Shown here: positions 42,763-62,485 of the stretch, piece by piece
Layout: the number at the start of each line of letters is the position of its first letter
Position numbering within the stretch: the first letter of the stretch is position 1
Source of the DNA: Comamonas sp.
GTDB lineage: Bacteria; Pseudomonadota; Gammaproteobacteria; Burkholderiales; Burkholderiaceae_C
DNA: 64,000 nucleotides
Reading direction: 5' to 3'
NCBI GenBank assembly: GCA_031277805.1
Contig: JAITLR010000011.1
Location: 1 to 64,000 of the forward strand
Notes under the pieces: generated by a model
Databases searched by the model: none
The model's input: only the letters and a program-made list of their open reading frames with translations
Told to the model about the DNA's origin: nothing
Made by a program: the position numbers and the translations under genes

Positions 42763-42780
42763 CATCGTCCGATCAGACTA
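42763..42780 (-). promoter_or_regulatory. Candidate steroid-regulon box, tesA2 side
   Basis: On the minus strand TAGTCT-GATC-GGACGATG is an interrupted inverted repeat with its stronger half-site towards tesA2. The same pattern precedes the DUF1329, YCF48-RND and enoyl-CoA hydratase genes. A LuxR-type regulator such as TesR/TeiR could bind it. Confidence 0.5.
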
Positions 42781-42877
42781 ACGGGATCCCTAGCGGACCC
42801 AGGCACCCTGAGGCACATGCCGCAGACCCCGGAAAACACCTGCCTAGGACAAACACCGAGCCCGTTCCCCCCCCTGC

Positions 42878-42895
42878 TAGTCCATGTGAAGGATT
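42878..42895 (+). promoter_or_regulatory. Weak candidate steroid-regulon box, tesA1 side
   Basis: TAGTCC-ATGT-GAAGGATT matches the left half of the shared motif and five of eight positions of the right half. It lies 48 bases before the tesA1 start. It is a possible low-affinity copy only. Confidence 0.25.
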
Positions 42896-42943
42896 CAAAA
42901 AAAAGCCACGGGCAGCACTCTTGCAGCAAGGAGACCTTCAGCC

Positions 42944-43921
42944 ATGCAAAGTACTGCCGCCACTTACGATCCCAAAGACTTCCGCCGTGCCCTGGGTATG
43001 TTCGGCACCGGAGTCACCATCGTCACCACCCGTGCCGAAAGCGGCGAGCCTGTGGGGATCACGGCCAACAGCTTCAACTCGGTCTCGCTGGAGCCACCCA
43101 TGGTGCTGTGGAGCCTGGCCAAGAATGCACGCAGCCTGCCCGTGTTCCAGAGCGCCGACACCTGGAATGTGCACATCCTCTCCAATGAGCAGGAAGCCCT
43201 GTCCAACCGCTTTGCCCGTGCAGGCGAGGACAAGTTCTCGGGTCTGCCGCTGGACTCGGAAGAAGCCCATGCCCCGCTGTTGCAGGACTGCAGCGCGCGC
43301 TTCAAATGCAAGACCGCTTTCCAGTACGACGGCGGCGACCACATCATCTTTGTGGGCGAGGTGACCAGCTACGACGCCAATCCGCACCCGCCGCTGCTGT
43401 ATGTGACCGGTGGCTACGCTCTGGCTTCACGCAAGGCCAACGCCGTGGCCAGCGAGCCGGCAGCCGACACCAACACCGCCTATTCCGAAAATCTCATCGG
43501 TTACCTGATGGGACGTTCTCACTTCCAATTTCTGAGCGGTCTTCGCAAGCCCATGGCGGCCTACGGCATGACAGATGCAGATTTCTATGTGCTGTCGCTG
43601 CTGAGCATCCAGCAACCTCAGTCGCCTGCCGAGATTGCCTCGCACATGGCCTACACCGGCACCGATATCGGTGCGGTCGCCCTGCAGTCGCTGATTGCCA
43701 AGGGCTGGGTGGAGGAAAGCCGTGATCGCGCTCAATCCTTGCAGCTCACGCCTCAGGGCAACGAAGCCATCCTTCATGTACTGGCCGCCGCCAAGGCCGT
43801 TGAGACCGATCTCATCGAAAGCCTGGGCGAGATGGAGGCCGCCACGTTGCGCAACCTGCTCAAGAAAGCCATTGCCGCCACCGACCCCGGCCTGCCCAAG
43901 CTCTGGCAGGCCAAGAGCTGA
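42944..43921 (+). CDS. tesA1: 3-HSA hydroxylase, flavin reductase component fused to a MarR-like domain
   Basis: Residues 1-165 form a flavin reductase domain (FGTGVTIVTTR, GITANSFNSVSLEPPMV, FVGEVTSY) that would reduce FMN or FAD with NADH for the oxygenase TesA2. Residues from about 182 to 318 look like a MarR winged-helix domain (FYVLSLLSIQQPQSPAEIASHM, ALQSLIAKGWVEESRDRAQSLQLTPQG). The best-known example of this fusion is reductase C1 of 4-hydroxyphenylacetate hydroxylase from Acinetobacter baumannii, where the MarR-like part makes flavin reduction respond to substrate. A GGAG site precedes the start. It heads the rightward operon. Numbering follows TA441 order by inference. Confidence 0.88.
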   Translation: MQSTAATYDPKDFRRALGMFGTGVTIVTTRAESGEPVGITANSFNSVSLEPPMVLWSLAKNARSLPVFQSADTWNVHILSNEQEALSNRFARAGEDKFSGLPLDSEEAHAPLLQDCSARFKCKTAFQYDGGDHIIFVGEVTSYDANPHPPLLYVTGGYALASRKANAVASEPAADTNTAYSENLIGYLMGRSHFQFLSGLRKPMAAYGMTDADFYVLSLLSIQQPQSPAEIASHMAYTGTDIGAVALQSLIAKGWVEESRDRAQSLQLTPQGNEAILHVLAAAKAVETDLIESLGEMEAATLRNLLKKAIAATDPGLPKLWQAKS

Positions 43922-43998
43922 AGCCAGGCCAGCATCGAATCCTCACCCGAAGGCCGGAAGCAGCCTTCGCCTATCCACTCCAAGCATCAAAAACAGAG

Positions 43999-44838
43999 AT
44001 GAGCACTTTTTCCATCCCAGAAGGCAAGTATGTGGACATCGGCAACGTGGCCGGCCACCCCCAGCGCGTGCACTATCACGAGCAAGGCTCGGGAGAGCCC
44101 GTGATCTTCCTGCACGGCGCCGGCACCGGCGCCAGCGGCTACAGCAACTTCAAGGGCAACTACCCCGAGTTCGCGCAGGCGGGCTTCCGTACCCTGGTGC
44201 CCGACCTGCTGGGCTTCGGCCTGTCGTCCAAGACCGAGGAGCCCAAGCAGTACGACCTCGACTTCTTCATCGCCGGCGTCAAGGGCCTGGTGGACCAGCT
44301 CGGCCTGAAGAACATCACGCTGCTGGGCAACTCGCTGGGCGGCGCGGTGGCGCTGGGCTATGCGCTCAAGCACCCTGAGGATGTCAAAAATCTGATCCTC
44401 ATGGCCCCCGGTGGCGTGGAAGAGTTTGAAGCCTATATGGCCATGCCCGGCATTGCCAATATGTTCAAGGTCTACCAATCGGGCAAGACCGGCCCCGAAG
44501 CCATGCGCGCCGTCATGAGCATGCAGGTGGTGGATCAGGCCCTGCTGACCGACGAGATCATCAACGAGCGCGCGCCGATTGCACTGACCCAGACCGAGGC
44601 CTCGCGCCAGCGTCTGTACATCCCGAACATGACTGAGCAGCTACCAGAGCTCAAGTGCAAGGTGCTGGCCTTCTGGGGCATGCAGGACGCCTTCAACCCC
44701 GTGGGCGGCGCCGACAAGCTGGCCAAGGGCATCCAGCACTGCCGCGTCGTGCTGGTCAACCAGTGCGGCCACTGGGTGCAGGTCGAGCACCGCGGCATGT
44801 TCAACCGCACCTGCATCGACTTCCTGAAGAACGGCTGA
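43999..44838 (+). CDS. tesD: 4,9-DSHA hydrolase (meta-cleavage product hydrolase)
   Basis: This 279-residue alpha/beta hydrolase splits the product of catechol ring cleavage (4,9-DSHA) into 2-hydroxyhexa-2,4-dienoate and the C/D-ring acid HIP. The nucleophile is Ser112 in LLGNSLGG; the acid is probably the Asp in FWGMQDAFNP and the base the His in NQCGHWVQVE. An oxyanion HGAGTGASG motif lies near residue 39. Length and motifs match HsaD/TesD. The stop is three bases before tesE. The middle of the gene uses less GC-rich codons than either end. Confidence 0.94.
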   Translation: MSTFSIPEGKYVDIGNVAGHPQRVHYHEQGSGEPVIFLHGAGTGASGYSNFKGNYPEFAQAGFRTLVPDLLGFGLSSKTEEPKQYDLDFFIAGVKGLVDQLGLKNITLLGNSLGGAVALGYALKHPEDVKNLILMAPGGVEEFEAYMAMPGIANMFKVYQSGKTGPEAMRAVMSMQVVDQALLTDEIINERAPIALTQTEASRQRLYIPNMTEQLPELKCKVLAFWGMQDAFNPVGGADKLAKGIQHCRVVLVNQCGHWVQVEHRGMFNRTCIDFLKNG

Positions 44839-44841
44839 TCC

Positions 44842-45636
44842 ATGAGCGACACCAGTTTCATCCCCACCCAGGGCCAGCGCCTGTACGACGCGCTGCGCAG
44901 CGCCAAGACCCTGGCGCCGCTGACCGACAGCCACCCCGAGATGACGGTGGAGCAGGCCTACCACATCTCGCTGCACATGCTGCGCCTGCGCGAAGCCGCG
45001 GGCGAGCGCGTGATCGGCAAGAAGATCGGCGTGACCTCCAAGCCCGTGCAGGACATGCTGAACGTGCACCAGCCCGACTTCGGCTTCCTGACCGACAGCA
45101 TGCAGTACGAGGACGGCGCCACCGTCTCGCTGAAAAAGGCCGGCCTGATCCAGCCCAAGGCCGAGGGCGAGATCGCCTTCATGCTCAAAAAAGATCTGCA
45201 AGGCCCGGGCGTGACCCGCGAGGACGTGCTGGCCGCCACCGAGTGGGTGGCGCCCTGCTTCGAGATCGTCGATTCGCGCATCGACGACTGGAAGATCCGC
45301 ATCCAGGACACGGTGGCCGACAACGCCTCCTGCGGCGTCTTCGTCATCGGCCGCCAGCACACCGATCCGCGCAGCCTCGACCTGGCCGCCGCCGCCATGC
45401 AGATGAGCAAGAACGGCCAGCCCGCCGGCACGGGCCTGGGCAGCGCCGTGCAGGGCCACCCGGCCGAGGCCGTGGCCTGGCTGGCCAACACCCTGGGCGC
45501 CTTCGGCATTCCCTTCAAGGCCGGCGAGGTCATCCTGTCCGGCTCCCTTGCCCCGCTGGTGCCCGCCGTGGCCGGCGACCGTTTCGAGATGGCCATCACC
45601 GGCCTGGGCAGCTGTTCCATTCAATTCACGGAGTAA
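44842..45636 (+). CDS. tesE: 2-Hydroxyhexa-2,4-dienoate hydratase
   Basis: This 264-residue protein belongs to the fumarylacetoacetate-hydrolase-related MhpD/HsaE hydratases. Conserved elements are GKKIGVTSKPVQDML (about residues 58-72), the metal-binding EGEIAFML acid pair and FEIVDSRI. It adds water to the dienoate released by TesD to give 4-hydroxy-2-oxohexanoate. It is cytoplasmic and needs a divalent metal. It lies three bases after tesD and six before tesF. Codon use is extremely GC-biased at third positions compared with flanking genes. Confidence 0.93.
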   Translation: MSDTSFIPTQGQRLYDALRSAKTLAPLTDSHPEMTVEQAYHISLHMLRLREAAGERVIGKKIGVTSKPVQDMLNVHQPDFGFLTDSMQYEDGATVSLKKAGLIQPKAEGEIAFMLKKDLQGPGVTREDVLAATEWVAPCFEIVDSRIDDWKIRIQDTVADNASCGVFVIGRQHTDPRSLDLAAAAMQMSKNGQPAGTGLGSAVQGHPAEAVAWLANTLGAFGIPFKAGEVILSGSLAPLVPAVAGDRFEMAITGLGSCSIQFTE

Positions 45637-45642
45637 GACCCC

Positions 45643-46563
45643 ATGACAAGCAAGAAGATCAAGTGCGCACTGATCGGCCCGGGCAACATCGGCACCGACC
45701 TGCTGATGAAGCTGCAGCGCAGCCCGCTGCTGGAGCCGGTCTGGATGGTGGGCATCGACCCCGAGTCCGACGGCCTCAAGCGCGCCCGCGAGATGGGCAT
45801 CAAGACCACGGCCGACGGCGTGGACGGCCTGCTGCCCTTCGTCAAGGAAGACGGCATCCAGATCGCCTTCGACGCCACCAGCGCCTACGTCCATGCCGAG
45901 AACAGCCGCAAGCTCAACGAGCTGGGCGTGCTGATGATCGACCTCACGCCCGCGGCCATCGGCCCCTACTGCGTGCCCAGCGTGAACCTGGCCGAGAAAG
46001 TGGCCGAGAAGGCCATGAACGTGAACATGGTCACCTGCGGCGGCCAGGCCACCATCCCCATGGTGGCGGCGGTCTCGCGCGTGCAGGCCGTGAGCTACGG
46101 CGAGATCGTGGCCACCGTGTCCTCCAGGTCGGTGGGCCCGGGCACGCGCAAGAACATCGACGAGTTCACCCGCACCACCTCGGGCGCGGTCGAGAAAATC
46201 GGCGGCGCGCAGAAGGGCAAGGCCATCATCGTCATCAACCCGGCCGAGCCGCCGCTGATCATGCGCGACACCATCCACTGCCTGACGGTGGACACGCCCA
46301 AGCCCGCCGAGATCGAGGCCTCGGTGCACGCGATGATCAAGGAAGTGCAGAAGTACGTGCCCGGCTACCAGCTGGTCAACGGCCCGGTGATCGACGGCAA
46401 CCGCGTCTCCATCTTCATGGAGGTCGAGGGCCTGGGCGACTACCTGCCCAAGTACGCCGGCAACCTGGACATCATGACCGCCGCCGCCGCGCGCACGGCC
46501 GAGATGTTCGCCGAAGAAATCCTGGCCGGCCGCTTCGAGCCCGCCGTTGCAGAAACCGCCTGA
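45643..46563 (+). CDS. tesF: Acylating aldehyde dehydrogenase (propanal/acetaldehyde)
   Basis: This 306-residue enzyme converts the aldehyde released by TesG, with NAD+ and CoA, to the acyl-CoA. The Rossmann motif is [12 protein letters not shown] near the start and the catalytic cysteine is Cys132 in [12 protein letters not shown]. The size equals that of BphJ/DmpF/HsaG proteins, which form a channelling complex with the aldolase encoded next. The gap to tesG is 16 bases with a GGGAG site. Confidence 0.95.
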
Positions 46564-46579
46564 AGACAGGGAGCAGAAC

Positions 46580-47620
46580 ATGAACCTCCAAGGCAAGAAG
46601 ATCACCGTCCACGACATGACGCTGCGTGACGGCATGCACCCCAAGCGCCACCTGATGACGCTGGAGCAGATGAAGTCCGTGGCCTGCGGCCTGGACGCCG
46701 CCGGCGTGCCGCTGATCGAGGTCACCCACGGCGACGGCCTGGGCGGCAGCTCGGTCAACTACGGCTTTCCCGCGCACAGCGACGAGGAGTACCTGGGCAC
46801 TGTGATCCCGCTGATGAAGCAGGCCAAGGTCTCGGCGCTGCTGCTGCCCGGCATCGGCACCGTCGACCACCTGAAGATGGCGCACGGCCTGGGCGTGTCC
46901 ACCATCCGCGTGGCCACGCACTGCACCGAGGCCGACGTCTCCGAGCAGCACATCGCCATGGCGCGCAAGATGGGCATGGACACTGTGGGCTTTCTGATGA
47001 TGGCCCATATGAACAGTGCCGAAGGCCTGGTCAAGCAAGCCAAGCTGATGGAAAGCTATGGCGCCAACTGCATCTACATCACCGACTCGGCCGGCTACCT
47101 GCTGCCCGACGGCGTGAAGGAGCGCCTCGCCGCCGTGCGCCAGGCGCTGAAGCCCGAGACCGAACTGGGCTTTCACGGCCACCACAACCTGGCCATGGGC
47201 ATCGCCAATTCGCTGGCCGCCGTCGAGGTGGGTGCCAACCGCATCGACGCCGCCGCCGCGGGCCTGGGCGCCGGCGCGGGCAACACGCCGATGGAAGTCT
47301 TCATCGCCGTGTGCGCGCGCATGGGCATAGAGACCGGCGTGGACGTGTTCAAGATCCAGGACGTGGCCGAGGACCTGGTCGTGCCGCTGATGGACTTCCC
47401 GATCCGCATCGACCGCGACGCGCTCACGCTGGGCTACGCCGGCGTGTACGGCAGCTTCCTGCTGTTCGCCAAGCGCGCCGAGGCCAAGTACGGCATCCCG
47501 GCGCGCGAGCTGCTGCTGGAGCTGGGCCGCCGCGGCATGGTGGGCGGCCAGGAGGACATGATCGAGGACACGGCGCTGACCATGGTGCGAGAGCGCCAGA
47601 AGCAGGCCGTCGCAGCCTAG
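46580..47620 (+). CDS. tesG: 4-Hydroxy-2-oxovalerate/hexanoate aldolase
   Basis: This 346-residue DRE-TIM aldolase cleaves 4-hydroxy-2-oxohexanoate to pyruvate and propanal. It has the catalytic [11 protein letters not shown] segment near the N-terminus, the metal-binding His pair in [10 protein letters not shown] and a C-terminal communication domain that binds TesF. The start at 46580 has a GGGAG site; the longer frame from 46547 lies inside tesF. A stretch around 46980-47060 has visibly lower GC than the rest of the gene, as if patched by recombination. A terminator-like hairpin follows. Confidence 0.95.
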
Positions 47621-47889: not shown

Positions 47890-48093
47890 TCAATAGGCGA
47901 GAGCCGAGACCGCTTGCCAGGATGTGCGGGCGCTGGCCAGACGAATGCCCTCCGGCAGCTCGATCTGGGTAGTCACCTGTGCAGCCACTGCCGTCTGCTG
48001 GGACATGTTCGTGGCAGGCAGATACAGCGCCAGCGCTGCGGCGACAAGCATGATGATTCTGAATCCGTTCAGCAGGTGGAAATGCTTTTTCAT
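47890..48093 (-). CDS. Small exported or membrane-anchored peptide (67 residues)
   Basis: This 67-residue protein starts MKKHFHLLNGFR and has one hydrophobic segment (IIMLVAAALALYLPA), which may be a signal peptide or an anchor. A Gln/Ala-rich linker follows, then TTQIELPEGIRLASARTSW. An AGGAGACAACG ribosome site before the ATG is among the best in the window. It is convergent with the tes operon. A good half-site of the candidate steroid-regulon box lies 63 bases upstream. No family is recognised. A longer frame to 48186 lacks a ribosome site. Confidence 0.6.
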   Translation of the reverse strand: MKKHFHLLNGFRIIMLVAAALALYLPATNMSQQTAVAAQVTTQIELPEGIRLASARTSWQAVSALAY

Positions 48094-48146: not shown

Positions 48147-48164
48147 AAAACTCCGGCATCGTCC
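48147..48164 (-). promoter_or_regulatory. Half-site of the candidate steroid-regulon box
   Basis: The complementary strand reads GGACGATG (48164 to 48157), facing the small exported-peptide gene at a distance of 63 bases, identical to the strong half of the motif seen before the ECH and YCF48-RND genes. The other half is not conserved. It may be chance. Confidence 0.25.
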
Positions 48165-48353
48165 ATCTTGATGAGCAGGTATTCACTTAGGTGGCAACCC
48201 GTGGACTCTGGCTTTCAACGCATTGAAAGCTATCGAAAAAAGGAGCATCTACCGCCTATATTCAATAGACTTCATGTGCTTTTCATCTTCAAACACAATT
48301 GAATCAATCGCTATCCGCTATCAATTTCAATAGTCCCGCATCCAGGCGGCCAC

Positions 48354-48399: not shown

Positions 48400-48764
48400 A
48401 ACCTGCCCGGACGGCCACCACCATCCGGGCCCAGGCGATCACATACAGAGAATCACCAGATCGCTAATGACGGCCGGATGGTCCTGGCCGCCACATGGAT
48501 GTTGAACTCCGTGGTCATCTGCATGCTGCGCCTGAGCTGCTCCATGACCTTGGTGCGCGAGCGCTCGGGTCTTGCAGCCGGACGGCACGATCACCCTGCA
48601 CCGGACGCACGGCCATGCCGATCTTCAGATCCATGCGTGTTGTCCAGTGCCTGTAGCGTCAGATCGGCCACCGGCTCCGGATGGAGCATGCGCGGCGCGG
48701 TCGCGTGCTTCTCAGGCTTGTACTGCGCAACACCGACCGGCGCTGCCGTTCCTTGCCATCCCAT
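48400..48764 (-). pseudogene. Remnant of a thiolase-like and DUF35-like gene pair
   Basis: On the minus strand an AAGGAG site and ATG at 48764 open a frame reading GTAAPVGVAQYKPEKHATAP and then PEPVADLTLQALDN. This resembles the first 45 residues of SCP-x/lipid-transfer-type thiolases (GVAQ...ADLT-x-x-AL). The frame then leaves the thiolase pattern and stops at 48591. A shifted frame over the same bases reads MDLKIGMAVRPVQGD, which resembles the end of DUF35 OB-fold proteins that partner such thiolases. I infer a deletion joining the start of a thiolase gene to the end of its DUF35 partner. An orphan terminator lies at the left. The assignment rests on short matches. Confidence 0.5.
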
Positions 48765-48877
48765 AGGTCTCCTTCCTCTAGAAAATGTTGCCTCATTGTG
48801 GGAGCAAGGAGCACCCGAGCCATCGTCAATGCAGACTAAGAATTCTGCCCCGTGGATACCCTCAATTCCCAGAGCTA

Positions 48878-48896
48878 ACGTCCATTCGGACGATGT
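48878..48896 (+). promoter_or_regulatory. Candidate steroid-regulon box, YCF48-RND operon
   Basis: ACGTCC-ATTC-GGACGATGT is an interrupted inverted repeat 80 bases before the YCF48-like gene. It is almost identical outside the spacer to the box at 62467-62485 (ACGTCC-N4-GGACGATGT, both followed by a GCC two bases later). Confidence 0.55.
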
Positions 48897-48976
48897 TGCC
48901 AAAGGCTCAAATCCTGAATCTGCATAGGTGTTCGCGACTCACGCATGAGCGTGTGTCAGGCCCATAAGGAGACAAA

Positions 48977-49978
48977 GTGAAAACAGCCGTCGGTATAGGC
49001 GCAGCAGCATTGGTGGCATTTGCCTCTGCGCTAGCCTTTGCACCCCGCACCCCGCCACCTCTCGCGCCCACGACCATCGGCGTGGAGCGCACTCATTTCA
49101 ATGCCATTACCCAGGTTGGCAACCGCATCCTCACGGTCGGTGCCATGGGCGAAATCCTCTACTCGGACGACAAGGGTGCCCACTGGACTGCCGCCAAACT
49201 GAACCAGGATCGTCAGGCCCTGATCGTCAGCGTCGCTTTTGCCCCCGACAAAAAGACCGGCTTTGCCGTGGGCCACGAAGGCTGGATTCTGCGCACCAGG
49301 GATGGCGGCGGCACCTGGGAGGAGATGGCCTTCTCCAAGGAGAACGGCGAGCCCCTGATGTCGATTGCACGCCTGCCATCGGGTGACTGGATCACCGTGG
49401 GCGCATTTGGCCGTGCATTGGAGTCCAAGGATGGTGGCCAGACCTGGCAGCCCCTGGCCTTGCCTGCAGAAGTCGAAGACAAGCATATGAACCGCATTGC
49501 CAGCTCTGCCGACCAGCAGCACTGGCTGATCGTGGGCGAGCGCGGCCTGGTGCTCAAGTCTGACGACGCCGGCGCCACCTGGCAGACCGAGCCCGCCTTC
49601 TACAACGGATCGTTCTACAACGCCATGGCCACCAAGGGTGACGGCTGGCTGATCTACGGCATGCGCGGCAATGCCTTTCTGCAGTCTGCACCAGGCGCGC
49701 AATGGGTCAAGTCTCAAGTTCCCGCACCCATCTCCTTCTTCGGCCACGCCCTGGAAAGCGACGGAACCATTGTTCTGGTCGGCCAGGGCAGCATGCTGGG
49801 CCTGAGCAAGGATGGAGGCAAGACTTTCTCCCTGGAACGTGCCAAGGGTCGTGCCACGCTGACCGACATCGTGCTGACCAGTGCCAACAACGGCTGGATG
49901 TCCAGCGACGCCGGGCTGCAGCCCTTTCCCCCGCAGGCGGAGGCCGCCCCCCAGGCTGACCAAGGAGACAAGCCATGA
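48977..49978 (+). CDS. YCF48-like exported beta-propeller protein
   Basis: This 333-residue protein starts at a GTG after an AAGGAG site. An N-terminal hydrophobic segment (VGIGAAALVAFASALAFAP) should export or anchor it. The rest is a repeated propeller of the YCF48/BNR type, with blade motifs such as YSDDKGAHW, RTRDGGGTW, ESKDGGQTW, KSDDAGATW and LSKDGGKTF (S/T-x-D-G-G-x-T-W pattern). Such proteins often sit beside RND permeases of the MMPL class and may serve as periplasmic partners. It overlaps the RND gene by four bases. Its place beside the tes operons suggests a steroid-transport accessory; this is inference. Confidence 0.85.
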   Translation: MKTAVGIGAAALVAFASALAFAPRTPPPLAPTTIGVERTHFNAITQVGNRILTVGAMGEILYSDDKGAHWTAAKLNQDRQALIVSVAFAPDKKTGFAVGHEGWILRTRDGGGTWEEMAFSKENGEPLMSIARLPSGDWITVGAFGRALESKDGGQTWQPLALPAEVEDKHMNRIASSADQQHWLIVGERGLVLKSDDAGATWQTEPAFYNGSFYNAMATKGDGWLIYGMRGNAFLQSAPGAQWVKSQVPAPISFFGHALESDGTIVLVGQGSMLGLSKDGGKTFSLERAKGRATLTDIVLTSANNGWMSSDAGLQPFPPQAEAAPQADQGDKP

Positions 49979-52467
49979 CCTTAAGCGAACCCGTAAGCAG
50001 CCTGGACCGGCTCATCGCCGCCACCGCCCGCTGGCTGATCTCCTGGAGCAAGACCATCGTCGTGCTCACCTTGCTTGCCACCGCCTTGCTGGGCGTCTCT
50101 GCCATGCGCACGCATCTGGACCCGGGCTTCAACAAGCTCATCCCCATGCGCCATGCCTATATGGAGGCATTTCTCAAACACTCTGCCACCTTCTCGGGCG
50201 CCAACCGCATTCTGGTCAGCGTGGAATGGAAGGGCCAGGGCGATATCTACAACCAGGAATTCCTCGAAGCCCTGCGTGGCGTCACCGACGAAATATTCTT
50301 CACGCCCGGCGTCAACCGGGGCCAGGTGTACTCGCTCTACACCCCCAACGTGAAGTACATCGAAATCACCGAAGACGGCTACGTGGGCGAGGTGCTGATC
50401 CCCTCACGCTTCGAAGCCGACGCCGAAGGGCTGGCCCAGGTGCGCTCGAATGTGGCCAAGTCCGGCCAGATCGGCTCTCTGGTCAGCAACGACCTCAAAT
50501 CCGCCATGGTGCGCGCCGACCTGCTGGAAGTGGACCCCAAGACCGGCGAAAAGCTCGACTATCACAAGGTGGCACAGCGCCTGGAGGAGATCCGCAGCAA
50601 ATTCGAAGGCAAGAACATCTCCATCCACATCATTGGTTTTTCCAAGGTGCTGGGCGACGTGATGGATGGTCTGACCACCGTGATGACCTTCTTCGCCATT
50701 GCCTTTGTCATCACGGCCATCATGCTGCGCCTCTATACCAGGTCCACCAACATCACGGTAGTGGGGCTGGCCGTGGCGCTGCTGCCCGTGATCTGGCTGC
50801 TGGGCATTTTGCCGCTGATCGGATACGGCATTGACCCTATGTCGATTCTGGTGCCCTTTCTGATTTTCTCCATTGGCGTATCCCATGCCGTGCAGATGAC
50901 GGGCGCCTGGAAACACGACGTGCGCGCGGGCCTGAGTTCCAGGCTGGCTGCAGAGAATGCGATTCGCAAGCTGGCCATCCCCGGTGCACTGGCTCTGCTG
51001 ACCAACGCCCTGGGCTTCATGGTCATCATGCTGATCGACATTCCCATCGTGCACGAGCTGGGTCTGACCGCCTGCATGGGCGTGCTGCTGATGATCATCA
51101 CCAACAAGATCTTCCTGCCTGCCGTGCTGGCAAATCTGCGCCTGGAAAAAAAGGCCATGCAGGCTCCTTCGTCGACGGCCAGCGGCCGCAACCCGCTGTG
51201 GTGGAAGCTCTCGGCCCTGGCCGAAGGCCGCCCCGCCCTGCTGACGCTGTTCGTATCGCTGACGCTGCTGGCAGCAGGCACCTACGAGTCGCGCCACTTG
51301 CTGACGGGTGATGTGGGCACCGGAGCGCCCGAGCTGCGTGCCGACTCGCGCTACAACCGCGACAACGACAACATCATCAACAACTACTCCATCGGCATGG
51401 ACGTGCTGTCCGTCTTTGTCGAGACGTCGAACCTCGAGGAGAGCTGCCTGAACTGGCAGGTGATGAATGCCGTGGAGCGCTTTGAAGCCCGCATGAGCCG
51501 TGTCGATGGCGTGCAATCGGTGTCCACCGTCGCCGGCCTGGCCAAGATTGCGGCATCGAGCAACAACGAGGGCAATCCCCGCTGGTCTGCCCTGCAGCGC
51601 ACCGAAGCCGCCCTGCGCTCGGGCACCAGGGCGCTCTCACCCGATCTGGGCCTGAACACCGAAGGCTGCAAGGTCATCAATCTGCAGGTCTTCCTCAAGG
51701 ACCACGAAGGCGCAACGCTGACCCATGTGGTAAGCGAAGTGCGCAGCTTCATCGCCGAAGACAAGACCCCCAACATCACGTTCAAGCTGGCTGGCGGCAA
51801 CGCCGGCGTGGCAGCGGCCACCAACGAGGCCGTGGAACACGCCGAAGCGCAGATGCTGGGCTCCATCTTTGGTGCCATCGCCTTGCTGTGCTGGCTGACC
51901 TTCCGCAGCTGGCGCGCCGTGCTGTGCATCGTCGTGCCCCTGGCCATCGTCTCCATCCTCTGCAATGCCTTGATGGCCATACTGGGCATAGGCCTGAAAG
52001 TGCCCACGCTGCCTGTGGTGGCGCTGGGTGTAGGCGTGGGTGTGGACTACGGCATCTACCTGTTCGAGAGCATGCAGCATGAGCTGCGCGAACGCGACAT
52101 CACGTTGCGCGAGGCCTTCTATGAAGCCATGCGCCAGCGTGGCAACGCGGCCATCTTCACGGCGCTGACCATGTCCATCGGTGTGGGCACCTGGGCCTTC
52201 TCGGCGCTGAAATTCCAGGCCGACATGGGCATCCTGCTGGCCTTCATGTTCCTGGTGAACATGCTGGGTGCCATCTTCCTGCTGCCCGCCATGGCCTACT
52301 GGCTCAATGTCGGCGTGACCGAGGTCAAGGCTCGCATCAACTCTCTGCCAAAGCAGCCCAAGGCCAGCAGCCACATCGGCAGCGCCGGCAAGACCGATGC
52401 CGCAGGTGTCACGGGTGGCGGCATGCTCAAGCCCGAACCTCAGTCCTCCGTGAACGGGAAGGTCTGA
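49975..52467 (+). CDS. RND superfamily permease of the MMPL type
   Basis: This 830-residue inner-membrane protein has the RND two-fold layout: one helix (about 24-43), a large periplasmic loop, a block of five to six helices (about 235-390), then a second helix (about 418-435), loop and block (about 625-785). The conserved VGVDYGIYLFE motif in the second block (near residue 690) has the Asp expected of proton-driven MMPL/HpnN-type lipid and hydrophobe exporters. It lacks periplasmic adaptor and TolC genes, so it is not a drug-efflux triad. It forms an operon with the YCF48-like gene. A role moving steroids or sterol-like lipids is suggested by context only. Confidence 0.9.
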   Translation: MTLSEPVSSLDRLIAATARWLISWSKTIVVLTLLATALLGVSAMRTHLDPGFNKLIPMRHAYMEAFLKHSATFSGANRILVSVEWKGQGDIYNQEFLEALRGVTDEIFFTPGVNRGQVYSLYTPNVKYIEITEDGYVGEVLIPSRFEADAEGLAQVRSNVAKSGQIGSLVSNDLKSAMVRADLLEVDPKTGEKLDYHKVAQRLEEIRSKFEGKNISIHIIGFSKVLGDVMDGLTTVMTFFAIAFVITAIMLRLYTRSTNITVVGLAVALLPVIWLLGILPLIGYGIDPMSILVPFLIFSIGVSHAVQMTGAWKHDVRAGLSSRLAAENAIRKLAIPGALALLTNALGFMVIMLIDIPIVHELGLTACMGVLLMIITNKIFLPAVLANLRLEKKAMQAPSSTASGRNPLWWKLSALAEGRPALLTLFVSLTLLAAGTYESRHLLTGDVGTGAPELRADSRYNRDNDNIINNYSIGMDVLSVFVETSNLEESCLNWQVMNAVERFEARMSRVDGVQSVSTVAGLAKIAASSNNEGNPRWSALQRTEAALRSGTRALSPDLGLNTEGCKVINLQVFLKDHEGATLTHVVSEVRSFIAEDKTPNITFKLAGGNAGVAAATNEAVEHAEAQMLGSIFGAIALLCWLTFRSWRAVLCIVVPLAIVSILCNALMAILGIGLKVPTLPVVALGVGVGVDYGIYLFESMQHELRERDITLREAFYEAMRQRGNAAIFTALTMSIGVGTWAFSALKFQADMGILLAFMFLVNMLGAIFLLPAMAYWLNVGVTEVKARINSLPKQPKASSHIGSAGKTDAAGVTGGGMLKPEPQSSVNGKV

Positions 52468-53953: not shown

Positions 53954-55459
53954 CTAGAACGAATACTTTGCAGTCACAGACAGCTGGTCGCGGTCTGTCA
54001 GCATCCGGTTCTTCAGCGGATCGGCGGAAGGATTGCCCATGTAGTTGGCGTAAGTGACATTGATCGAGAGGTTGTTTTTACGAACAAAGGTCACGCCCAG
54101 GCTGAGACGGCTGTCGCCCTGGCCACCGCCAAAGGTACCCACCATCGAGCGACCAACGATCTGCGACTGGTAGCTGATGGGAACACTCATGTCCCAGCCT
54201 TCGAAGATACCGGGGTAGCCCAGCGTCAGGGTCGCCGCGCCCACCAGCGAGTTGCGGGTCTTGAAGTTGAGATCGTTGAGGCTACCCTCCTCCACACTCA
54301 TCACACGTGAGCCGGAGATTTCAGTCGCCAGGGACACATCATCGGCAAACGAGGTACGGCCGATATTGAAGATGCCGCCTACGTTGCCCTGCACCACATT
54401 GCCGCGCACCGGCGTGGCCAGATCGCCCATCAGCACGGGCGTGCCCTTGCGGTAGCTGGCTTCGCCGAAGGCCGAGAACATGCCGAAGGTCGTGCTGACC
54501 GTGGCGCCCAGCATCTTGATGCCGTCAAAGTACTTGATGTTGTAGCCCCCCAGAGCGTTCATCGCGACAGTGGGCGTGCGATCCTTGTAGTCTAGGTAGT
54601 ACAGGCCCAGTTCGGTTTCGCTCGTCAGACGGTAACGCGTACCGATACCCCACTGGCCGGACTTGCCGGGACGGATGTCGTCGCCCCGCGGCAGATAGCA
54701 GGCCGGGCCAGCCCTGTAACCACAGTTCGCGCCGGGGCCGATCAGGTTGCTGGTGCTGGTATACATGCCCACGGCCGGTAGCAGCGTCTCATGGAAGCCG
54801 AACTGATAGTGGGCCAGCAACGACAGCTTGGGGTTGACCTCCAGCGATGCCGATATCTGGTCTTCGGGCAGCAGGATTTCCTTGATTTCTGCACCGGGCG
54901 ATGCCGCCTTGGCCGCATCGCTGGGGCCCTGCGCACCGGCGATATTGGCGAAGAACATGGACTCGCCCCAGTTCATCACCTGCTTGCCCACGCGCACCGT
55001 GGCACGGGCATCTCCCATGTTGAAGCTCGTGTAGGCATAGGTGTCCAGCAGACGCGAGTAGCCGCCGCCATAGCGCTTGGCCGCCGAAGTGAACCGGTCG
55101 GCAGGGCCGCCCGTGCTGATCGGTCCCTGGTTGTCATTCCTCTGGTGGTACACATCGTCATAGAAGGTGCTGGCGTTCAGCACGAAGCCGCTATCGCCTT
55201 TGGACAACTTGCTCTCCCAGAGCGCGCCCAAACGGTTTGCCGTAAGAGAACCCTTTTTGAAGTTGTTATCGCCGTCAGATGCAATCACCGGGGAAGGATT
55301 GTTCAGACGAACACCCAGGCCATAGTTCAAGTTCAGACGCCAGTCGAACTTCAAGCCATCGCCAAGGTCAACCGTCTCCCCCGCGTGAACAGCACCCATG
55401 CCCAGGGACAGCAGCGCGGCCACTGCGATGGGGGTGAGTTTCTTCATATTGTTTTTCAT
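53954..55459 (-). CDS. DUF1302 family outer-membrane protein
   Basis: This 501-residue protein has a signal peptide (KKLTPIAVAALLSLGMGAVHAG) and a mature part rich in alternating beta strands with aromatic girdles. It ends in a C-terminal Phe (SVTAKYSF), the usual signal for outer-membrane barrel insertion. A KFDWRLNLNYGLGVR start and repeated glycine-aromatic strands fit DUF1302. Homologues commonly pair with DUF1329 genes and occur with RND permeases in strains that degrade steroids or other hydrophobic compounds. It probably forms a barrel through which such compounds pass, but its substrate is unknown. It lies 23 bases after DUF1329. Confidence 0.87.
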   Translation of the reverse strand: MKNNMKKLTPIAVAALLSLGMGAVHAGETVDLGDGLKFDWRLNLNYGLGVRLNNPSPVIASDGDNNFKKGSLTANRLGALWESKLSKGDSGFVLNASTFYDDVYHQRNDNQGPISTGGPADRFTSAAKRYGGGYSRLLDTYAYTSFNMGDARATVRVGKQVMNWGESMFFANIAGAQGPSDAAKAASPGAEIKEILLPEDQISASLEVNPKLSLLAHYQFGFHETLLPAVGMYTSTSNLIGPGANCGYRAGPACYLPRGDDIRPGKSGQWGIGTRYRLTSETELGLYYLDYKDRTPTVAMNALGGYNIKYFDGIKMLGATVSTTFGMFSAFGEASYRKGTPVLMGDLATPVRGNVVQGNVGGIFNIGRTSFADDVSLATEISGSRVMSVEEGSLNDLNFKTRNSLVGAATLTLGYPGIFEGWDMSVPISYQSQIVGRSMVGTFGGGQGDSRLSLGVTFVRKNNLSINVTYANYMGNPSADPLKNRMLTDRDQLSVTAKYSF

Positions 55460-55482
55460 GATGAGTCGCTCGTTGATAAAAC

Positions 55483-56859
55483 TTAGTTGCCGGCGTTGCG
55501 AGCGGCTTCAGGCGTGAACATGGCGGGCGTCAACCCACCGCGGTTCAGGACCGGGCCCTTTGGGCGCTCCTGGAACAAGGTGTAGGCCAGGTAAGAGCCA
55601 GCATTGAGGTCGTGGTAGAACGAAGTACCGGCGTGCCAGGCATTGAGGTCATACGAGTAGTACATATTGACTGCGGCGTGCTGCCACAGTTGGCCGCGCG
55701 CGTCGTACATGTCGCTGAGCACGGCCTGGCCGGTGTCCTCATCGGCATACATCACCCGCTTGCCGTAGACATGGCGATAGCCCTCCTTGAGCGTGCCCTC
55801 GATCACCCACACCCGGCGCAGCTCATAGCGCAGGAACTCGGGATTCGGGTGCTGGGGCGTGAGCAGGTCTTTGTACTTGATCGTCGGCTGAGCCAGGCGC
55901 AGGGCATTGGCGGGGATGTACACCTCCTTCTTGCCCAGCAGCTTCCAGTTGTAGCGCTCGGGCGAGCCGTTGAACAGGCGATCGGAATCGATGGTGAGCT
56001 TGCCGCCGGTACCGGGCAGGGGCTGGTCGAAGCCGAACTCGGGTAGCTGGCGCACACGGCGCGTGCCGGGGTCGTAGTTCCAGGCCAGGCGCTTGTTGCT
56101 GTAATCAATAGGGTCCGACGAGATGGTCACGCCACCCTTTTCGCGCTCCGGCAACTGGACCTTGGTGATGGTGTAGACCGACACGCCTTCCAGCGGCTTG
56201 CCGACCTCGGCAGGGTTGTTTGGCGGCACGAGGTAGCGCAGCTCGTTGCGCCCGAAGGTGATGGAGCCATCGGACAGCACATTGGCCGAGTCAGCAATGT
56301 TCTCCTCGGTATAGGCCCGCGTCGGCAGGATAGTGTTCCACAGCGCCTCGATGCCGTTCTTGGGCAACGGGAAGCTGATGGCGCCCCCCAGGCTCTTGAC
56401 GCCCATGCCGTCGCTGATCACCTCGGCCGTGGTCGCATTCTTCTTGATGGTTGCGCACACTTCATCGCTGTAGCGGAAGTCGCGGTGCCCCGGATAGACG
56501 GGCATCTGCATCGTTTTGGGGTACTTCTGGAACAGGGCCTTCTGACCCGGTGTGAGCTTGTCGGCGTACTGATCGATATTGGCCGCCGTGATGACGAACA
56601 GCGGCTTCTCGTTGGCATAGATATCCACCGGGTGCTTGCCGCTGTGCGGCGTATGGGCCACGCCCGGAGGCGCGCCCAGCCACTTGCCGGTGAATTCGGG
56701 GATGGTTCCCTCCTTGTTGCCGGCCTTGATCGCGCCAACACAAGTCAAATCCTTGCCCAACCGCTCTGCCTCGCTTGCGGGCACTTTGGCCCATACCGAC
56801 GTTGCGAGCATCAAACCCACTGCCACCGCAAGTGGAGTCTTGGCCGTCACAAACTTCAT
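55483..56859 (-). CDS. DUF1329 family exported protein (LolA-like)
   Basis: This 458-residue protein has a signal peptide (TAKTPLAVAVGLMLATSVWA) and matches DUF1329 throughout: the GKDLTCVGAIKAGNKEGTIP opening, a YDPGTRRVRQLPEFGFD block, an RVWVIEGTLKEGYRHVYGKR block and an EDTGQAVLSDMYDARGQLW block. The family is classed with the LolA/LolB-like folds, which bind lipid in an open half-barrel. A periplasmic carrier that hands hydrophobic molecules between membranes is therefore plausible. AGGAG precedes the start. It heads an operon with DUF1302 and the hydrolase, and a candidate regulon box lies 125 bases upstream. Confidence 0.88.
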   Translation of the reverse strand: MKFVTAKTPLAVAVGLMLATSVWAKVPASEAERLGKDLTCVGAIKAGNKEGTIPEFTGKWLGAPPGVAHTPHSGKHPVDIYANEKPLFVITAANIDQYADKLTPGQKALFQKYPKTMQMPVYPGHRDFRYSDEVCATIKKNATTAEVISDGMGVKSLGGAISFPLPKNGIEALWNTILPTRAYTEENIADSANVLSDGSITFGRNELRYLVPPNNPAEVGKPLEGVSVYTITKVQLPEREKGGVTISSDPIDYSNKRLAWNYDPGTRRVRQLPEFGFDQPLPGTGGKLTIDSDRLFNGSPERYNWKLLGKKEVYIPANALRLAQPTIKYKDLLTPQHPNPEFLRYELRRVWVIEGTLKEGYRHVYGKRVMYADEDTGQAVLSDMYDARGQLWQHAAVNMYYSYDLNAWHAGTSFYHDLNAGSYLAYTLFQERPKGPVLNRGGLTPAMFTPEAARNAGN

Positions 56860-56984: not shown

Positions 56985-57002
56985 CATCGTCTGAGAAGAC
57001 TA
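56985..57002 (-). promoter_or_regulatory. Candidate steroid-regulon box, DUF1329 operon
   Basis: On the minus strand TAGTCT-TCTC-AGACGATG matches the tesA2 box (TAGTCT-GATC-GGACGATG) at 13 of the 14 non-spacer positions, with the stronger half facing the DUF1329 gene 125 bases away. Confidence 0.5.
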
Positions 57003-59473: not shown

Positions 59474-60141
59474 GCAAGCTCCTCGGTTTGGTGGGTCAAC
59501 AGGCTGGTCTCGAAGGGACAGAAGGCATGCGAGATCGCATCCACCGTCCACTCTGGAAACTCGGGGTCGAACCAGCGGTCCACCCAGCCCCAGTGATAGG
59601 GATGCGCCAGGTACTCGCCCTGGAGATCCTCGACGCTGGCGAACTCCTGCTGCCAGACGTGGGTCCAGCCACCTCCAGCACCATTTCCGGCAACATTTCC
59701 AGCGCCATCCGGGCAGACCCGGCTCAGCTGCCAGTTGCGGATGCCGAGGATGTAGGCCGGCATGCGCAGCAGATCCTGCTCCAGCGCGGCCACCTGGGCC
59801 GGGTCGCGGCCTTCGCGCACGCGCAGCATCAGCGTGCGCCAGGTGCCATCCCGCAACCCGGGTGCACGCTGGCCACCGCCCACGCGCCGGTAGGCCACAC
59901 GGTCCACACGAGCCACGCCGGGCAGCTGCGCCAGACAAGCCTCGGCCCGCCCCCTGGCATCGGCGCTGCCAAAGCACAGGTCCACGGTCAGATCGCCGCA
60001 GCCCCAGCTGCCGGCCAGGTTGCGGCCCACGTTGGAGAAGACGAGATCGGGCAGGTCCTGGAGGCGGTGCTGCAACGCAGCTTCCACGGCCTCCGGCGCG
60101 GCTCCGGCTTCGAGATAGATCTGAGCGGTCTCATTCCACAT
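59470..60141 (-). CDS. Dabb-type (stress-responsive A/B barrel) protein, tandem form
   Basis: This 223-residue protein contains a C-terminal dimeric alpha/beta barrel segment (GWTHVWQQEFASVEDLQGEY, then HPYHWGWVDRWFDPEFPEW), the pattern of Dabb-domain proteins. The first half (LPDLVFSNVGRNLAGSWG, AQLPGVARVDRVAYR) may be a second, divergent barrel. Such barrels carry out isomerisation, cyclisation or bind hydrophobic substrates. It overlaps the SDR gene by four bases and the preceding gene by eleven. Confidence 0.75.
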   Translation of the reverse strand: MWNETAQIYLEAGAAPEAVEAALQHRLQDLPDLVFSNVGRNLAGSWGCGDLTVDLCFGSADARGRAEACLAQLPGVARVDRVAYRRVGGGQRAPGLRDGTWRTLMLRVREGRDPAQVAALEQDLLRMPAYILGIRNWQLSRVCPDGAGNVAGNGAGGGWTHVWQQEFASVEDLQGEYLAHPYHWGWVDRWFDPEFPEWTVDAISHAFCPFETSLLTHQTEELA

Positions 60142-60475
60142 GGTGTGCGGCCTCCGGTGTCAGCAAGGGTTGATCGGCCTGGCCCAGCACGTGGCGGGCA
60201 CGGCGCTCGCACCAGCCATCGACGGTGTTCCAGAACTCCACCACTTCGGCGCCGGCTCCCAGGCGCATGCCGAAGTAGCCCCACACGTCGGGCACCTGCC
60301 ACAGCAGCCAGAGCCGGTTGGGCTGGCCTTCAATCGCCACCGGCGGCGACACCCAGCGCTGCTGCAGCGTCAGGCCGCGCGCGCCGGCCTTGGGTAGATA
60401 GCGCTCGTCGAGCAAGGCCAGCACGTCGGGAATGCGTTCCGGCGCTATCAGTATTTCGTCCAGAATCTGGATCAT
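60131..60475 (-). CDS. Small alpha/beta-barrel-like protein (NIPSNAP/EthD-type)
   Basis: This 114-residue protein starts IQILDEILIAPERIPDVLALLDERYLP and has LTLQQRWVSPP, WLLWQVPDVWGYFGMR and EVVEFWNTVD blocks. The alternation of strands and helices fits a single ferredoxin-like barrel unit as in NIPSNAP or EthD proteins, but I see no exact signature. It is the first gene of the operon; its stop overlaps the start of the Dabb gene. The divergent AraC regulator lies 143 bases away. Confidence 0.65.
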   Translation of the reverse strand: MIQILDEILIAPERIPDVLALLDERYLPKAGARGLTLQQRWVSPPVAIEGQPNRLWLLWQVPDVWGYFGMRLGAGAEVVEFWNTVDGWCERRARHVLGQADQPLLTPEAAHHVE

Positions 60476-60618
60476 GGTTTGTTTGTGCTCCTCATATCAA
60501 TTCTTGGTTCCGCCGCGACTGCAAGCCCGGCGTGCCATGATTGAGCCATGGCGATGGCGACGGCACCGTCACCCCGCCGATCACACAGCACTACCGAAAC
60601 GATCACCCGGCGAAATTG

Positions 60619-61623
60619 ATGACGGCTTCGCGCACCAAGACTCCCGCACGCCCGCTGCAGGGCCTGGAAACCCGGCTGCTGGCCGAACTGCAGCGCCACC
60701 AATTGCGGATTCCGGGGCAGGAGCGGGACAGCGCCGCGCTGTCGGCGGACCGCTTCGTGACGCTGTACCGCCAGGCCATAGAGCAGCTTGAGGCCAAGGT
60801 CGCTCAGGGCCAGGGCCAGGCGCCCATGCGCAAGAACGAGGTGGACCTGATGTGCCGCTGCCTGCTGAGCTGCGCCCAGCTCGGCGAGGCCATGCAGTGC
60901 GCGGCCGAGTTCTGCGCCATGCTGCATCCGCGCGCGGGCCGGCTGAGCCTGGAGATGCGCGGCGACACCGCCGTCTTCCACATGGATTCGCTGCGCCTCA
61001 AGCGCAGCACGGCGGCCTGCCTGGTCGACCTGACCGGCGTGTTCTGCTACCTGCAGCTGTTCGGCTGGCTGATCGGGCAGCCGCTGCGCCCGCACGAGGT
61101 GTTCCTGGCCCACCCCGAGCGCCAGGATGCGGCGCCCTTTCTGGGCCTGTTCGATGCGCCGGTGGCCGTGGGTCGCAAGACCTATGGCTTCAGCTTCGAC
61201 ACCGCGCTGCTGGAGCATCAGGTGGTGCGCAGGCCGGCCGAGCTGGCAGCCTTCCTGGAGGATTTCCCGTTCCGGCTGGTCGGCGCGCCAGCGGGCACGG
61301 TGACGCTCGCGCAGCAGGTACGTGGCTTGCTGGAGGCGGCGCTCAGCCACGGGTTGGAACTGCCCGCACTGGGCAGCATTGCCGCTTCGCTGCACACCAC
61401 CGAGCCCACGCTGCGCCGGCGCCTGGCCGCCGAGGGAGCCAGCTATCAGGGACTGCGCAAGCTGTGCCTGCGCGAGGCCGCCCAACACTGCCTGCAGGGC
61501 ACCGACTGGAGCATAGGCCGCATCTCCACCCACCTGGGCTTTGCCAGCGAGGCCGCTTTCCGGCGAGCCTTCCAGAGCTGGACCGGCCAGGCGCCCAGCC
61601 GCTACCGCGCCCAGAGCCGCTGA
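60619..61623 (+). CDS. AraC family transcriptional regulator (OruR/arabinose-binding-like N-domain)
   Basis: This 334-residue protein has a C-terminal AraC DNA-binding domain (about residues 235-334) with LGSIAASLHTTEPTLRRRLAAEGASYQ as the first helix-turn-helix and ISTHLGFASEAAFRRAFQSWTGQAPSRYR as the second. The N-terminal 200 residues match the arabinose-operon-regulator-like domain found in OruR and related proteins that sense amino or fatty acids (LCRCLLSCAQLGEAMQCAAEFCAML). It is divergent from the Dabb-SDR-MDR operon and probably activates it. I chose the ATG at 60619 over a TTG at 60541. Confidence 0.85.
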   Translation: MTASRTKTPARPLQGLETRLLAELQRHQLRIPGQERDSAALSADRFVTLYRQAIEQLEAKVAQGQGQAPMRKNEVDLMCRCLLSCAQLGEAMQCAAEFCAMLHPRAGRLSLEMRGDTAVFHMDSLRLKRSTAACLVDLTGVFCYLQLFGWLIGQPLRPHEVFLAHPERQDAAPFLGLFDAPVAVGRKTYGFSFDTALLEHQVVRRPAELAAFLEDFPFRLVGAPAGTVTLAQQVRGLLEAALSHGLELPALGSIAASLHTTEPTLRRRLAAEGASYQGLRKLCLREAAQHCLQGTDWSIGRISTHLGFASEAAFRRAFQSWTGQAPSRYRAQSR

Positions 61624-61639
61624 ACTTCGGAATGCGCCT

Positions 61640-62431
61640 TCAGTGGCCGCCTGCCATATGCTCTGCGTTGGAGGCTCCCAGGAACGCGGGCTTCTCACCG
61701 CCGCCGTGCAGCAGCAAATTGGTTCCGCTCATGTATGACGCGTTCCCGGACGCCACATACAGGCAGGCATTGGCAATGTCTTGCGGCTCGGCCAGACGGC
61801 CGGCGGGAATGGTCTGCGCAACCGATGCAATACCGGCCTCGTCGCCGAAATGCAGATGCGATTGCTCGGTACGCACCAGACCGGGACTCACGGCCACCAC
61901 GCGCACCTTGGGTGCCCACTCCACAGCCAGAGAGCTGACCAGACTCAGCACCGCGGCCTTGGCCGCGCCGTAGGCCGCTGTACCGGGCGAGGGGCGCAGC
62001 GCGCTGATGCTGCCGATGCAGACAATCACGCCACCGCTGTCCTGCTGCTGCATCACCGCGTTGGCGGCCTGCGAGGCATGCAGGGTCGAGAAAAGATTCA
62101 GGCGCAGCACGCTTTCGTGAAAGCGCGGTGATACCGTTGCCGCATCCACATGAGGGGCGCCACCCGCGTTGTTGATGAGGATATCCAGCCGGCCATGACG
62201 GCGCTGCACTTCATCGACCAGCTCCTTGACGGCCTGGGCTTCGCGCACATCGCAAGCCACGAAATCCGCGCTGCGGTTGCCCGCAACGGGCAGCTCTTCG
62301 GGCTGCTGACGCCCACAGACCACCACCGTGGCACCCGCAGCCAGAAATGCCTGCGCAATGCCCTTGCCTATGCCCTTGGTGCCGCCGGTCACCAGAACCA
62401 CTTGGTTGTGAAATCCGTTATTCGTATTCAT
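61640..62431 (-). CDS. Short-chain dehydrogenase/reductase (second copy)
   Basis: This 263-residue SDR has the TGGTKGIG cofactor motif (about residues 15-22), NNAGGAPH, a catalytic Ser in IGSISAL, and the Y-x-x-x-K pair in AAYGAAKAAVLSL, and ends in YMSGTNLLLHGGGEKPAF, the usual C-terminus of classical SDRs. It would oxidise or reduce a hydroxyl group, perhaps a hydroxysteroid or hydroxyacyl-CoA. It is convergent with the AraC gene and divergent from the enoyl-CoA hydratase. A candidate regulon box lies 36 bases upstream. Confidence 0.9.
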   Translation of the reverse strand: MNTNNGFHNQVVLVTGGTKGIGKGIAQAFLAAGATVVVCGRQQPEELPVAGNRSADFVACDVREAQAVKELVDEVQRRHGRLDILINNAGGAPHVDAATVSPRFHESVLRLNLFSTLHASQAANAVMQQQDSGGVIVCIGSISALRPSPGTAAYGAAKAAVLSLVSSLAVEWAPKVRVVAVSPGLVRTEQSHLHFGDEAGIASVAQTIPAGRLAEPQDIANACLYVASGNASYMSGTNLLLHGGGEKPAFLGASNAEHMAGGH

Positions 62432-62466
62432 GGATACCAATTTAGACGGTGGCAGCCATTGGAGAT

Positions 62467-62485
62467 ACGTCCAAAAGGACGATGT
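62467..62485 (+). promoter_or_regulatory. Candidate steroid-regulon box, SDR/enoyl-CoA hydratase
   Basis: ACGTCC-AAAA-GGACGATGT lies in the 108-base gap between the divergent SDR and enoyl-CoA hydratase genes. It equals the box at 48878-48896 outside the spacer. The stronger half faces the hydratase, 55 bases away. Confidence 0.55.

Follow-up and report, generated by a model that had tools for sequence, protein, structure and literature searches.

The question raised by this locus is whether a single inverted repeat, standing in front of steroid-degradation genes as well as of envelope genes in a Comamonas sp., is the operator of one common regulator. The window analysed comprises 64,000 nucleotides, being the first 64 kb of the 94-kb contig JAITLR010000011.1 (C30 in what follows) of assembly GCA_031277805.1, a genome of 4.16 Mb in 31 contigs which is about 86% complete and whose gene starts and open reading frames (ORFs) were called by a simple purpose-made gene caller. 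The motif reads T[A/C]GTCY-N4-RGACGATG, and a sigma70-type -10 element lies downstream of it at a constant spacing. It is very probably the operator, here named the TesR box, of LuxR-type activators of the TesR/TeiR family, working at class II promoters.

Four inverted-repeat sites had been claimed in the original prediction, and all of them read letter for letter as described, each with its strong half facing a gene start. On the minus strand, the operator of tesA2 (TAGTCTGATCGGACGATG, 42763..42780; -10 GAGCAT at 42742-42737, in the common register) lies 98 bases from its gene (41468..42664), which encodes an HsaA-like monooxygenase oxygenase subunit (NCBIfam HsaA, 379 bits, below the curated cut-off of 450). 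On the same strand, that of the DUF1329-DUF1302 genes (TAGTCTTCTCAGACGATG, 56985..57002; -10 CACCAT at 56964-56959) lies 125 bases from the pair (53954..56859, with DUF1329 at 55483-56859 and DUF1302 at 53954-55459; Pfam 9.5e-114 and 4e-116). On the plus strand, the operator of YCF48-RND (ACGTCCATTCGGACGATG, 48878..48895; -10 GAATCT at 48916-48921) precedes by 81 bases the genes for a YCF48-like protein and an MMPL/RND transporter (48977..52467; Pfam PSII_BNR 3e-19, MMPL 1e-28). The fourth site, a palindromic operator between divergent genes (ACGTCCAAAAGGACGATG on the plus strand, 62465..62484; the 62467 site below), is 55 bases away from an enoyl-CoA hydratase gene (62540..63352, plus strand). 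The pattern GTCYNNNNRGACGATG matches the window exactly at four places, where chance would give 0.01, a number reached in 0 of 100 shuffles, and with up to two mismatches 30 matches were counted against 14.7 ± 4.3.

As regards the two weaker copies that had been pointed out, only the one at 42878 could be retained, having a -10 at the right spacing and being conserved. It is the weaker TesR-box operator of tesA1 (42878..42895, plus strand; -10 CACTCT at 42916-42921) and reads TAGTCCATGTGAAGGATT here and TAGTCCNNGTGAAGGATT in all 12 relatives' loci listed, two of which are identical. The copy at 48164 (48157-48174, minus strand) is probably not an operator, since its 5' half is poor and no -10 stands in register; a 67-amino-acid ORF downstream of it (47890-48093, minus strand) gave no Pfam match at E 0.001. 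In addition, a site with one mismatch (TAGTCTGCATTGACGATG, 48821..48838, minus strand; -10 CACAAT in register) had been overlooked. The tesA1 site heads a plus-strand run of five genes (42944..47620) which according to Pfam encode a flavin reductase (tesA1), an alpha/beta hydrolase, an FAA-hydrolase-fold protein, an acetaldehyde dehydrogenase and an HMGL/DmpG aldolase, and which match a tesA1-D-E-F-G run. TesA1 itself (42944-43921, plus strand) matches the p-hydroxyphenylacetate hydroxylase reductase model along nearly its full length and has a MarR-like stretch at its C-terminal end (Pfam E 4e-05, short of the cut-off). The tes names of this run follow in part PMC13101464.

The promoter geometry was established across genomes, counting sites with the strict pattern TAGTCYNNNNRGACGATG and numbering positions from the first T of the site as 1. 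Three sets were used: 53 Comamonas genomes, 39 genomes of other genera, which were reached via 40 of the 80 loci found by relatedness of the RND protein (L076 left out), and a class-wide sample of 369 genomes. Twenty control sites, 19 from the class sample and one from genome G080, came from genomes without a strong TesR. In the 115 strict sites of the 21 non-Comamonas genomes bearing both motif and TesR, the sole strong downstream signal was an A at position 40 (84%) and a T at position 44 (81%), with A favoured at positions 42-43, which is the pattern of a sigma70-type -10 hexamer. These two bases, which were not used in selecting the sites, occur together at 88 of the 115 sites, in 45 of 48 distinct Comamonas flanks (taken from part of the 84 Comamonas sites) and at none of the controls, while the next-best offset for the A/T pair accounts for 20 of the 115. 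Within one base, the register is kept at 110 of the 115 sites, in 48 of 48 Comamonas flanks and at one of 20 controls, a further control lying at two bases. All four sites originally reported carry A40 and T44, and so do those at 42878 and 48838. Regarding their surroundings, 107 of the 115 sites overlap no called ORF and have a start on the same strand at most 250 bases away (median 72 bases), four fall inside ORFs and four elsewhere; the Comamonas flanks are intergenic and face such a start in 38 of 48 cases, with none inside an ORF and 10 of other kinds, and for the controls the corresponding figures are 1, 14 and 5.

Deduced from the -10, conventionally placed at -12 to -7, transcription would begin near position 51, which puts the centre of the palindrome near -41.5, over the -35, and lets the site span from about -50 to -33. 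A palindrome that replaces the -35 is arranged like the site of a class II activator, and the placement over the -35 was found to be fixed, the start being deduced as stated; overlap with the -10 or with the start, the repressor-type arrangement, was not found. The lux box and the ComA box are class II sites of LuxR-family regulators built in this way, with inverted half-sites centred close to -42 and replacing the -35, the half-sites of the ComA box being separated by a 4-base spacer. The TesR box shares with both the inverted half-sites and the replaced -35, and with the ComA box the spacer as well, but its half-site sequence is different.

The motif was also found to accompany TesR from genome to genome. 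Taking a match at E < 1e-170 as a strong TesR, the strict motif is present in 18 of the 53 Comamonas genomes, which are exactly the 18 with a strong TesR (18/18 against 0/35), and the 84 strict sites contrast with 3 matches to the reversed control in all 53. In the other genera (E < 1e-70), 23 of 39 genomes have a strong TesR; the motif occurs in 21 of these 23 and in one of the 16 others, with 116 sites in all against 2 reversed-control matches. In the class sample, with a TesR threshold of E up to 1e-30 and up to five candidates scored per genome, both TesR genomes carry the motif (4 and 7 sites), as against 17 of the 367 genomes without TesR which have at least one site (19 sites; 17 matches of the reversed pattern in the 369). 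When the comparison is confined to genomes encoding an HsaA-like protein (NCBIfam HsaA model, E up to 1e-60), a small and not independent set, the motif is found in 23 of 25 with TesR and in 0 of 9 without it. Moreover, a TesR-family gene is on the same contig as 88 of the 115 sites and within 20 kb of 51. The sites, the fixed spacing of their -10, their conservation and their co-occurrence with TesR are shown by the sequences themselves.

The TesR of this genome (tesR at C30 71332-72513) has 393 amino acids and a C-terminal GerE/LuxR helix-turn-helix (Pfam GerE 4.6e-06, 26.6 bits against a cut-off of 23.5), the nearest solved helix-turn-helix by sequence being that of ComA. The structure of a homolog (L072) was predicted with fair confidence (mean predicted local distance difference test, pLDDT, 69; predicted template modelling score, pTM, 0.45), and in its fold search GAF, PAS and phytochrome proteins reached template modelling (TM) scores between 0.18 and 0.36, which suggests that the sensor part ahead of the helix-turn-helix is GAF/PAS-like rather than an acyl-homoserine-lactone or receiver domain. 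Forty TesR-family proteins were aligned, namely the TesR of this genome, those of 17 other Comamonas, those of 20 non-Comamonas genomes (of the 23 with TesR) and two paralogs from this genome; for the other Comamonas the best-matching copy was used, in several cases not the one in the cluster. Of the 40, 36 share the recognition-helix segment NTARAHLR(S/A)IFSKTG.

The identity of the binder is where the strongest alternative arises, namely that the operator is real and class II, and that its main binder is a paralog of TesR, or that several paralogs share it, with the regulon split by substrate. Two further TesR-like genes exist in this genome, one on contig C17 (L149:7430-8704; 66% identical), whose recognition-helix segment is the same as that of TesR, and one on contig C9 (L150:6929-8104; 38% identical), whose segment differs (HTARAHLRAIFSKTG). 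Two or three strong TesR-like copies occur in many TesR-bearing Comamonas, and an operator with two mismatches and a -10 (C17:39970) lies upstream of the SDR gene adjoining the C17 paralog. Nevertheless, the cluster-borne TesR is the copy that PMC6895838 reports to be required for inducing the tesB, tesA1 and tesA2 clusters; the 51 sites lying within 20 kb of a TesR-family gene do not distinguish between paralogs. On balance this alternative is rather unlikely, and the binder is most likely TesR itself and not one of its paralogs that has an identical helix. A truncated extra copy of TesR is also encoded at C26:205096-205563 (L151:5096-5563), with about 153 C-terminal residues, 80% identical and including the helix-turn-helix.

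With TesR as the activator, the process that we infer would run as follows. A TesR dimer would bind directly to both half-sites by its ComA-like helix-turn-helix, and, the conserved downstream half being at the -35 position, would contact RNA polymerase there, so that transcription would proceed by class II activation from the -10 having A and T at positions 40 and 44. The presence of steroid, as the presumed signal at each promoter, would switch on the operons for ring degradation together with the DUF1329/DUF1302 and YCF48/RND envelope genes, and the operon ending in tesR would be switched on as well, which would amount to a positive feedback.

The genes behind the sites in the rest of the genome were sought by the genome-wide scan that the original prediction had called for, and the outcome was in its favour. 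There are 11 exact matches, six of them on C30, where none is overlapped by a called gene; the five outside C30 all fall within called coding ORFs and were rejected as operators. The scan placed the motif at tesB, tesA2, tesA1, the operon ending in tesR and, weakly, kshA. Specifically, an operator precedes tesB (C30:87847); another (C30:90201) is upstream of SnoaL-like and old-yellow-enzyme-like genes, which have been likened to the steABCD of PMC13101464; a third (C30:75398) belongs to an SDR-MaoC-thiolase operon followed by tesR on the same strand; and a degenerate one (C30:68421) precedes kshA. On another contig, an operator (C2:17708) with corresponding sites in relatives G020 and G007 precedes a second DUF1329 gene. 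A40 and T44 are present at all these sites, that is, C30:87847, 90201, 75398, 68421, 42878 and 48838, C2:17708 and C17:39970. The kshA site is kept in 3 of 3 sequences, those being this genome and the 2 of 13 relative stretches where kshA was found, and the site of the SDR gene at 74542 is exact in 12 of 13 relatives. An iterated weight matrix, which drifted because palindromes match in reverse too, was used solely to nominate candidates, the kshA, SDR-74542 and reverse-strand 62467 sites being then checked by conservation. Behind C30:90201 there is a shortened SDR-like frame (L032:15883-16215, C30 about 89.9-90.3 kb), at the place where relatives have an SDR start (MRLAGKVAVVTGAGQGMGRAIAQRF).

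Looser matches were also considered. Among those with up to two mismatches, C7:296492, C24:89739, C29:241534 and C29:243537 were discarded for lying inside called ORFs, and C26:389762, a possible site with no called gene over it and upstream of an AMP-binding-enzyme gene, has no T44. This last one (L354:1501-1544) is a near-palindrome, TAGTCCGTCCGGACTATG, with its -10 out of register, and TTAGTCCGCCCGGACTATG was found in G007 and G028. At three mismatches the genome gives 96 matches and the reversed control 78; that level therefore carries little information.

According to PMC6895838 (2019, citing work of 2004), TesR is necessary for inducing the tesB-tesR, tesA1-tesG and tesA2-ORF18 clusters. 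The tesB, tesA1 and tesA2 clusters each carry a site (C30:87847, 42878 and 42780), which together with the genes served and the co-occurrence with TesR supports the proposal of a shared TesR/TeiR-type regulator. The further proposal that the envelope module is joined to the steroid regulon was borne out by the sites preceding YCF48-RND, DUF1329-DUF1302 and the distant second DUF1329 gene. In other genera the same holds, since DUF1329 is among the best matches: for the 107 start-facing sites outside Comamonas, the best matches on C30 of the gene behind include TesB for 18, the 74542 SDR for 14, TesA1 and TesA2 for 11 each, DUF1329 for 9 and KshA for 3, while 14 have no match, and the envelope genes are therefore recurrent members. 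Proteins of 60-71 amino acids, hydrophobic at the N-terminus and similar to one another at the C-terminal end, are encoded directly behind TesR boxes (L262, L269, L276, L287) in G058, G082, G054 and G057, which are Aromatoleum, Thauera and a metagenome-assembled genome (MAG).

Two sites of the window deserve separate mention. The 62467 palindrome is exact in 17 of the 18 TesR-bearing Comamonas, this one included, and all 18 show in-register -10 bases on each strand (here GACCAT at 62505-62510, plus strand, and TAAATT at 62444-62439, minus strand), the SDR-side TAAATT being the same in all. On these sequence grounds it therefore probably drives two divergent promoters. On the minus strand, the predicted transcription start (about 62432) coincides with the ATG of the SDR oxidoreductase gene (61640..62431), so that its transcript may be leaderless. 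Close orthologs of the enoyl-CoA hydratase on the other side (78-91% identity) were found in the 17 other tesR-bearing Comamonas and nowhere else among the 53 searched. As for the 48838 site, a matching one faces a two-gene run in three other Comamonas loci, those of C. testosteroni ATCC 11996 (L125), C. suwonensis (L120) and a MAG (L079), where the YCF48-RND site is also present. In L079 the run encodes thiolase-like and ChsH2/MaoC-like proteins (Pfam), and in the window remnants of both are left at 48442..48764 on the minus strand: the first 42 amino acids of the thiolase-like protein (48764-48639) and a C-terminal ChsH2/MaoC-like piece (48588-48442), with 71% and 47% identity to the L079 proteins in tblastn. 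Judged by these remains, the operator has outlived its two-gene operon, which collapsed by deletion.

Several observations weigh against TesR as the activator acting through this box. The kshA site is degenerate, at 5 of the 115 sites a -10 is missing even when a shift of two bases is allowed, and no site was seen by eye in the immediate upstream region of tesR. Two Solimonas genomes have TesR homologs (36%) and no strict motif, their helix being deviant (NTARTHLRSIFCKTG; RTHLR, FCKTG), and in P. vancouverensis (L405), whose genome does bear the motif, the helix likewise deviates from the consensus (NTSRAHLRSTFSKTG). TesR paralogs of the same genome could, from their sequence, bind the same site. 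In addition, according to the reviews PMC6678751 and PMC8399759, TeiR is a polar membrane protein and has kinase activity, which is unlike a classic one-component activator. As to the samples, TesR and the steroid genes travel together and only nine HsaA-like-positive genomes without TesR separate them; no HsaA match in the genomes searched, the tesA2 of this window included, passes the curated cut-off, and some of these nine may therefore not be steroid degraders. Moreover, the genomes are phylogenetically non-independent, and the 39 from other genera, reached as they were through relatives of the RND protein, are not a random choice.

Since TesR co-occurs with steroid genes, any regulator linked to the cluster would correlate in the same way, and the motif could belong to another one, such as the product of the AraC-type gene at 60619-61623, which ends 0.8 kb from the 62467 site. 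Nevertheless, among the matches listed for 25 loci that contain the exact site, homologs of TesR turn up repeatedly and the AraC gene is never a best match, and the nine HsaA-like-positive genomes without TesR all lack the motif, which makes this explanation very improbable. Very improbable, too, is a repressor which would bind the site and be relieved by steroid. Repressors do serve steroid regulons elsewhere, KstR/KstR2 and EdcR having palindromic operators for steroid catabolism, a feature shared with the site described here (PMC6678751 and PMC8700777); the EdcR palindrome, however, overlaps the -10 (PMC8700777), whereas the TesR box is fixed near -41.5 over the -35, within one base in 110 of 115 cases, and the TesR that the motif tracks is described as a positive regulator in PMC13101464 and PMC6895838. 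That the sites are chance or repeat-element matches to a short, partly degenerate motif is practically negligible, for although random matches exist (the 17 of 367 TesR-less genomes), those in TesR-less genomes are mostly inside genes (14/20) and without a -10, and the fixed spacing and cross-genus conservation already refute such a reading.

The regulator recognised here as the probable activator is not new, TesR/TeiR having been reported in 2004, as cited in PMC13101464 and PMC6678751, and the closest known system is the TesR/TeiR regulon of C. testosteroni, with the regulator gene in the same cluster and the site in the clusters reported as TesR-dependent in PMC6895838. As far as the literature searched goes, that regulon apparently gains new members here in the lost operon, the second DUF1329 gene and the envelope genes. 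No published TesR operator was found in the literature searched, and papers not openly available could contain one. PMC6895838 also repeats a report that tesR-like genes exist solely in C. testosteroni, which is contradicted by the strong TesR of 23 of 39 genomes from other genera. The AmeABCD system of Castellaniella defragrans (PMC6394551) brings together DUF1302, DUF1329, YCF48-like (COG4447) and RND proteins for the use of monoterpenes, and so resembles the envelope genes of this window in its four protein types and in its link to an apolar substrate. The genome of C. defragrans DSM 12141 (L135 = G088), when searched, showed neither a strong TesR nor the strict motif, so that the link between envelope module and box is not a general one. 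Furthermore, a 2021 review (PMC8399759) regards the regulatory mechanisms of bile-acid-degrading Proteobacteria as largely unknown, and mentions, as unpublished data, that deletion of a TeiR-like gene delays growth of P. stutzeri Chol1 on cholate.

The TesR box is very probably the operator of a known regulator, with a host range and regulon wider than the literature searched reports. With somewhat more reserve than for the box itself, we consider it likely that steroid breakdown in beta- and gammaproteobacteria (Comamonas, Polaromonas, Thauera, Aromatoleum, Zoogloea, Cupriavidus, Shewanella, Endozoicomonas, Halomonas, Marinobacter, Halopseudomonas and Pseudomonas) is controlled by a single TesR-family activator through a single kind of operator. 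The promoter would be of class II with an invariable geometry, the DUF1329/DUF1302/YCF48/RND envelope module would be among the core members of the regulon, and at least one operator would drive two opposite promoters. A shared site would explain how the whole steroid pathway is switched on in a coordinated manner, and, being a defined operator with a fixed promoter geometry, it allows the regulon to be read from genomes and offers a testable target. In addition, the uncharacterised DUF1329/DUF1302, YCF48 and RND genes are pointed to as part of steroid handling, and TesR-box promoters could be used for steroid biosensors.

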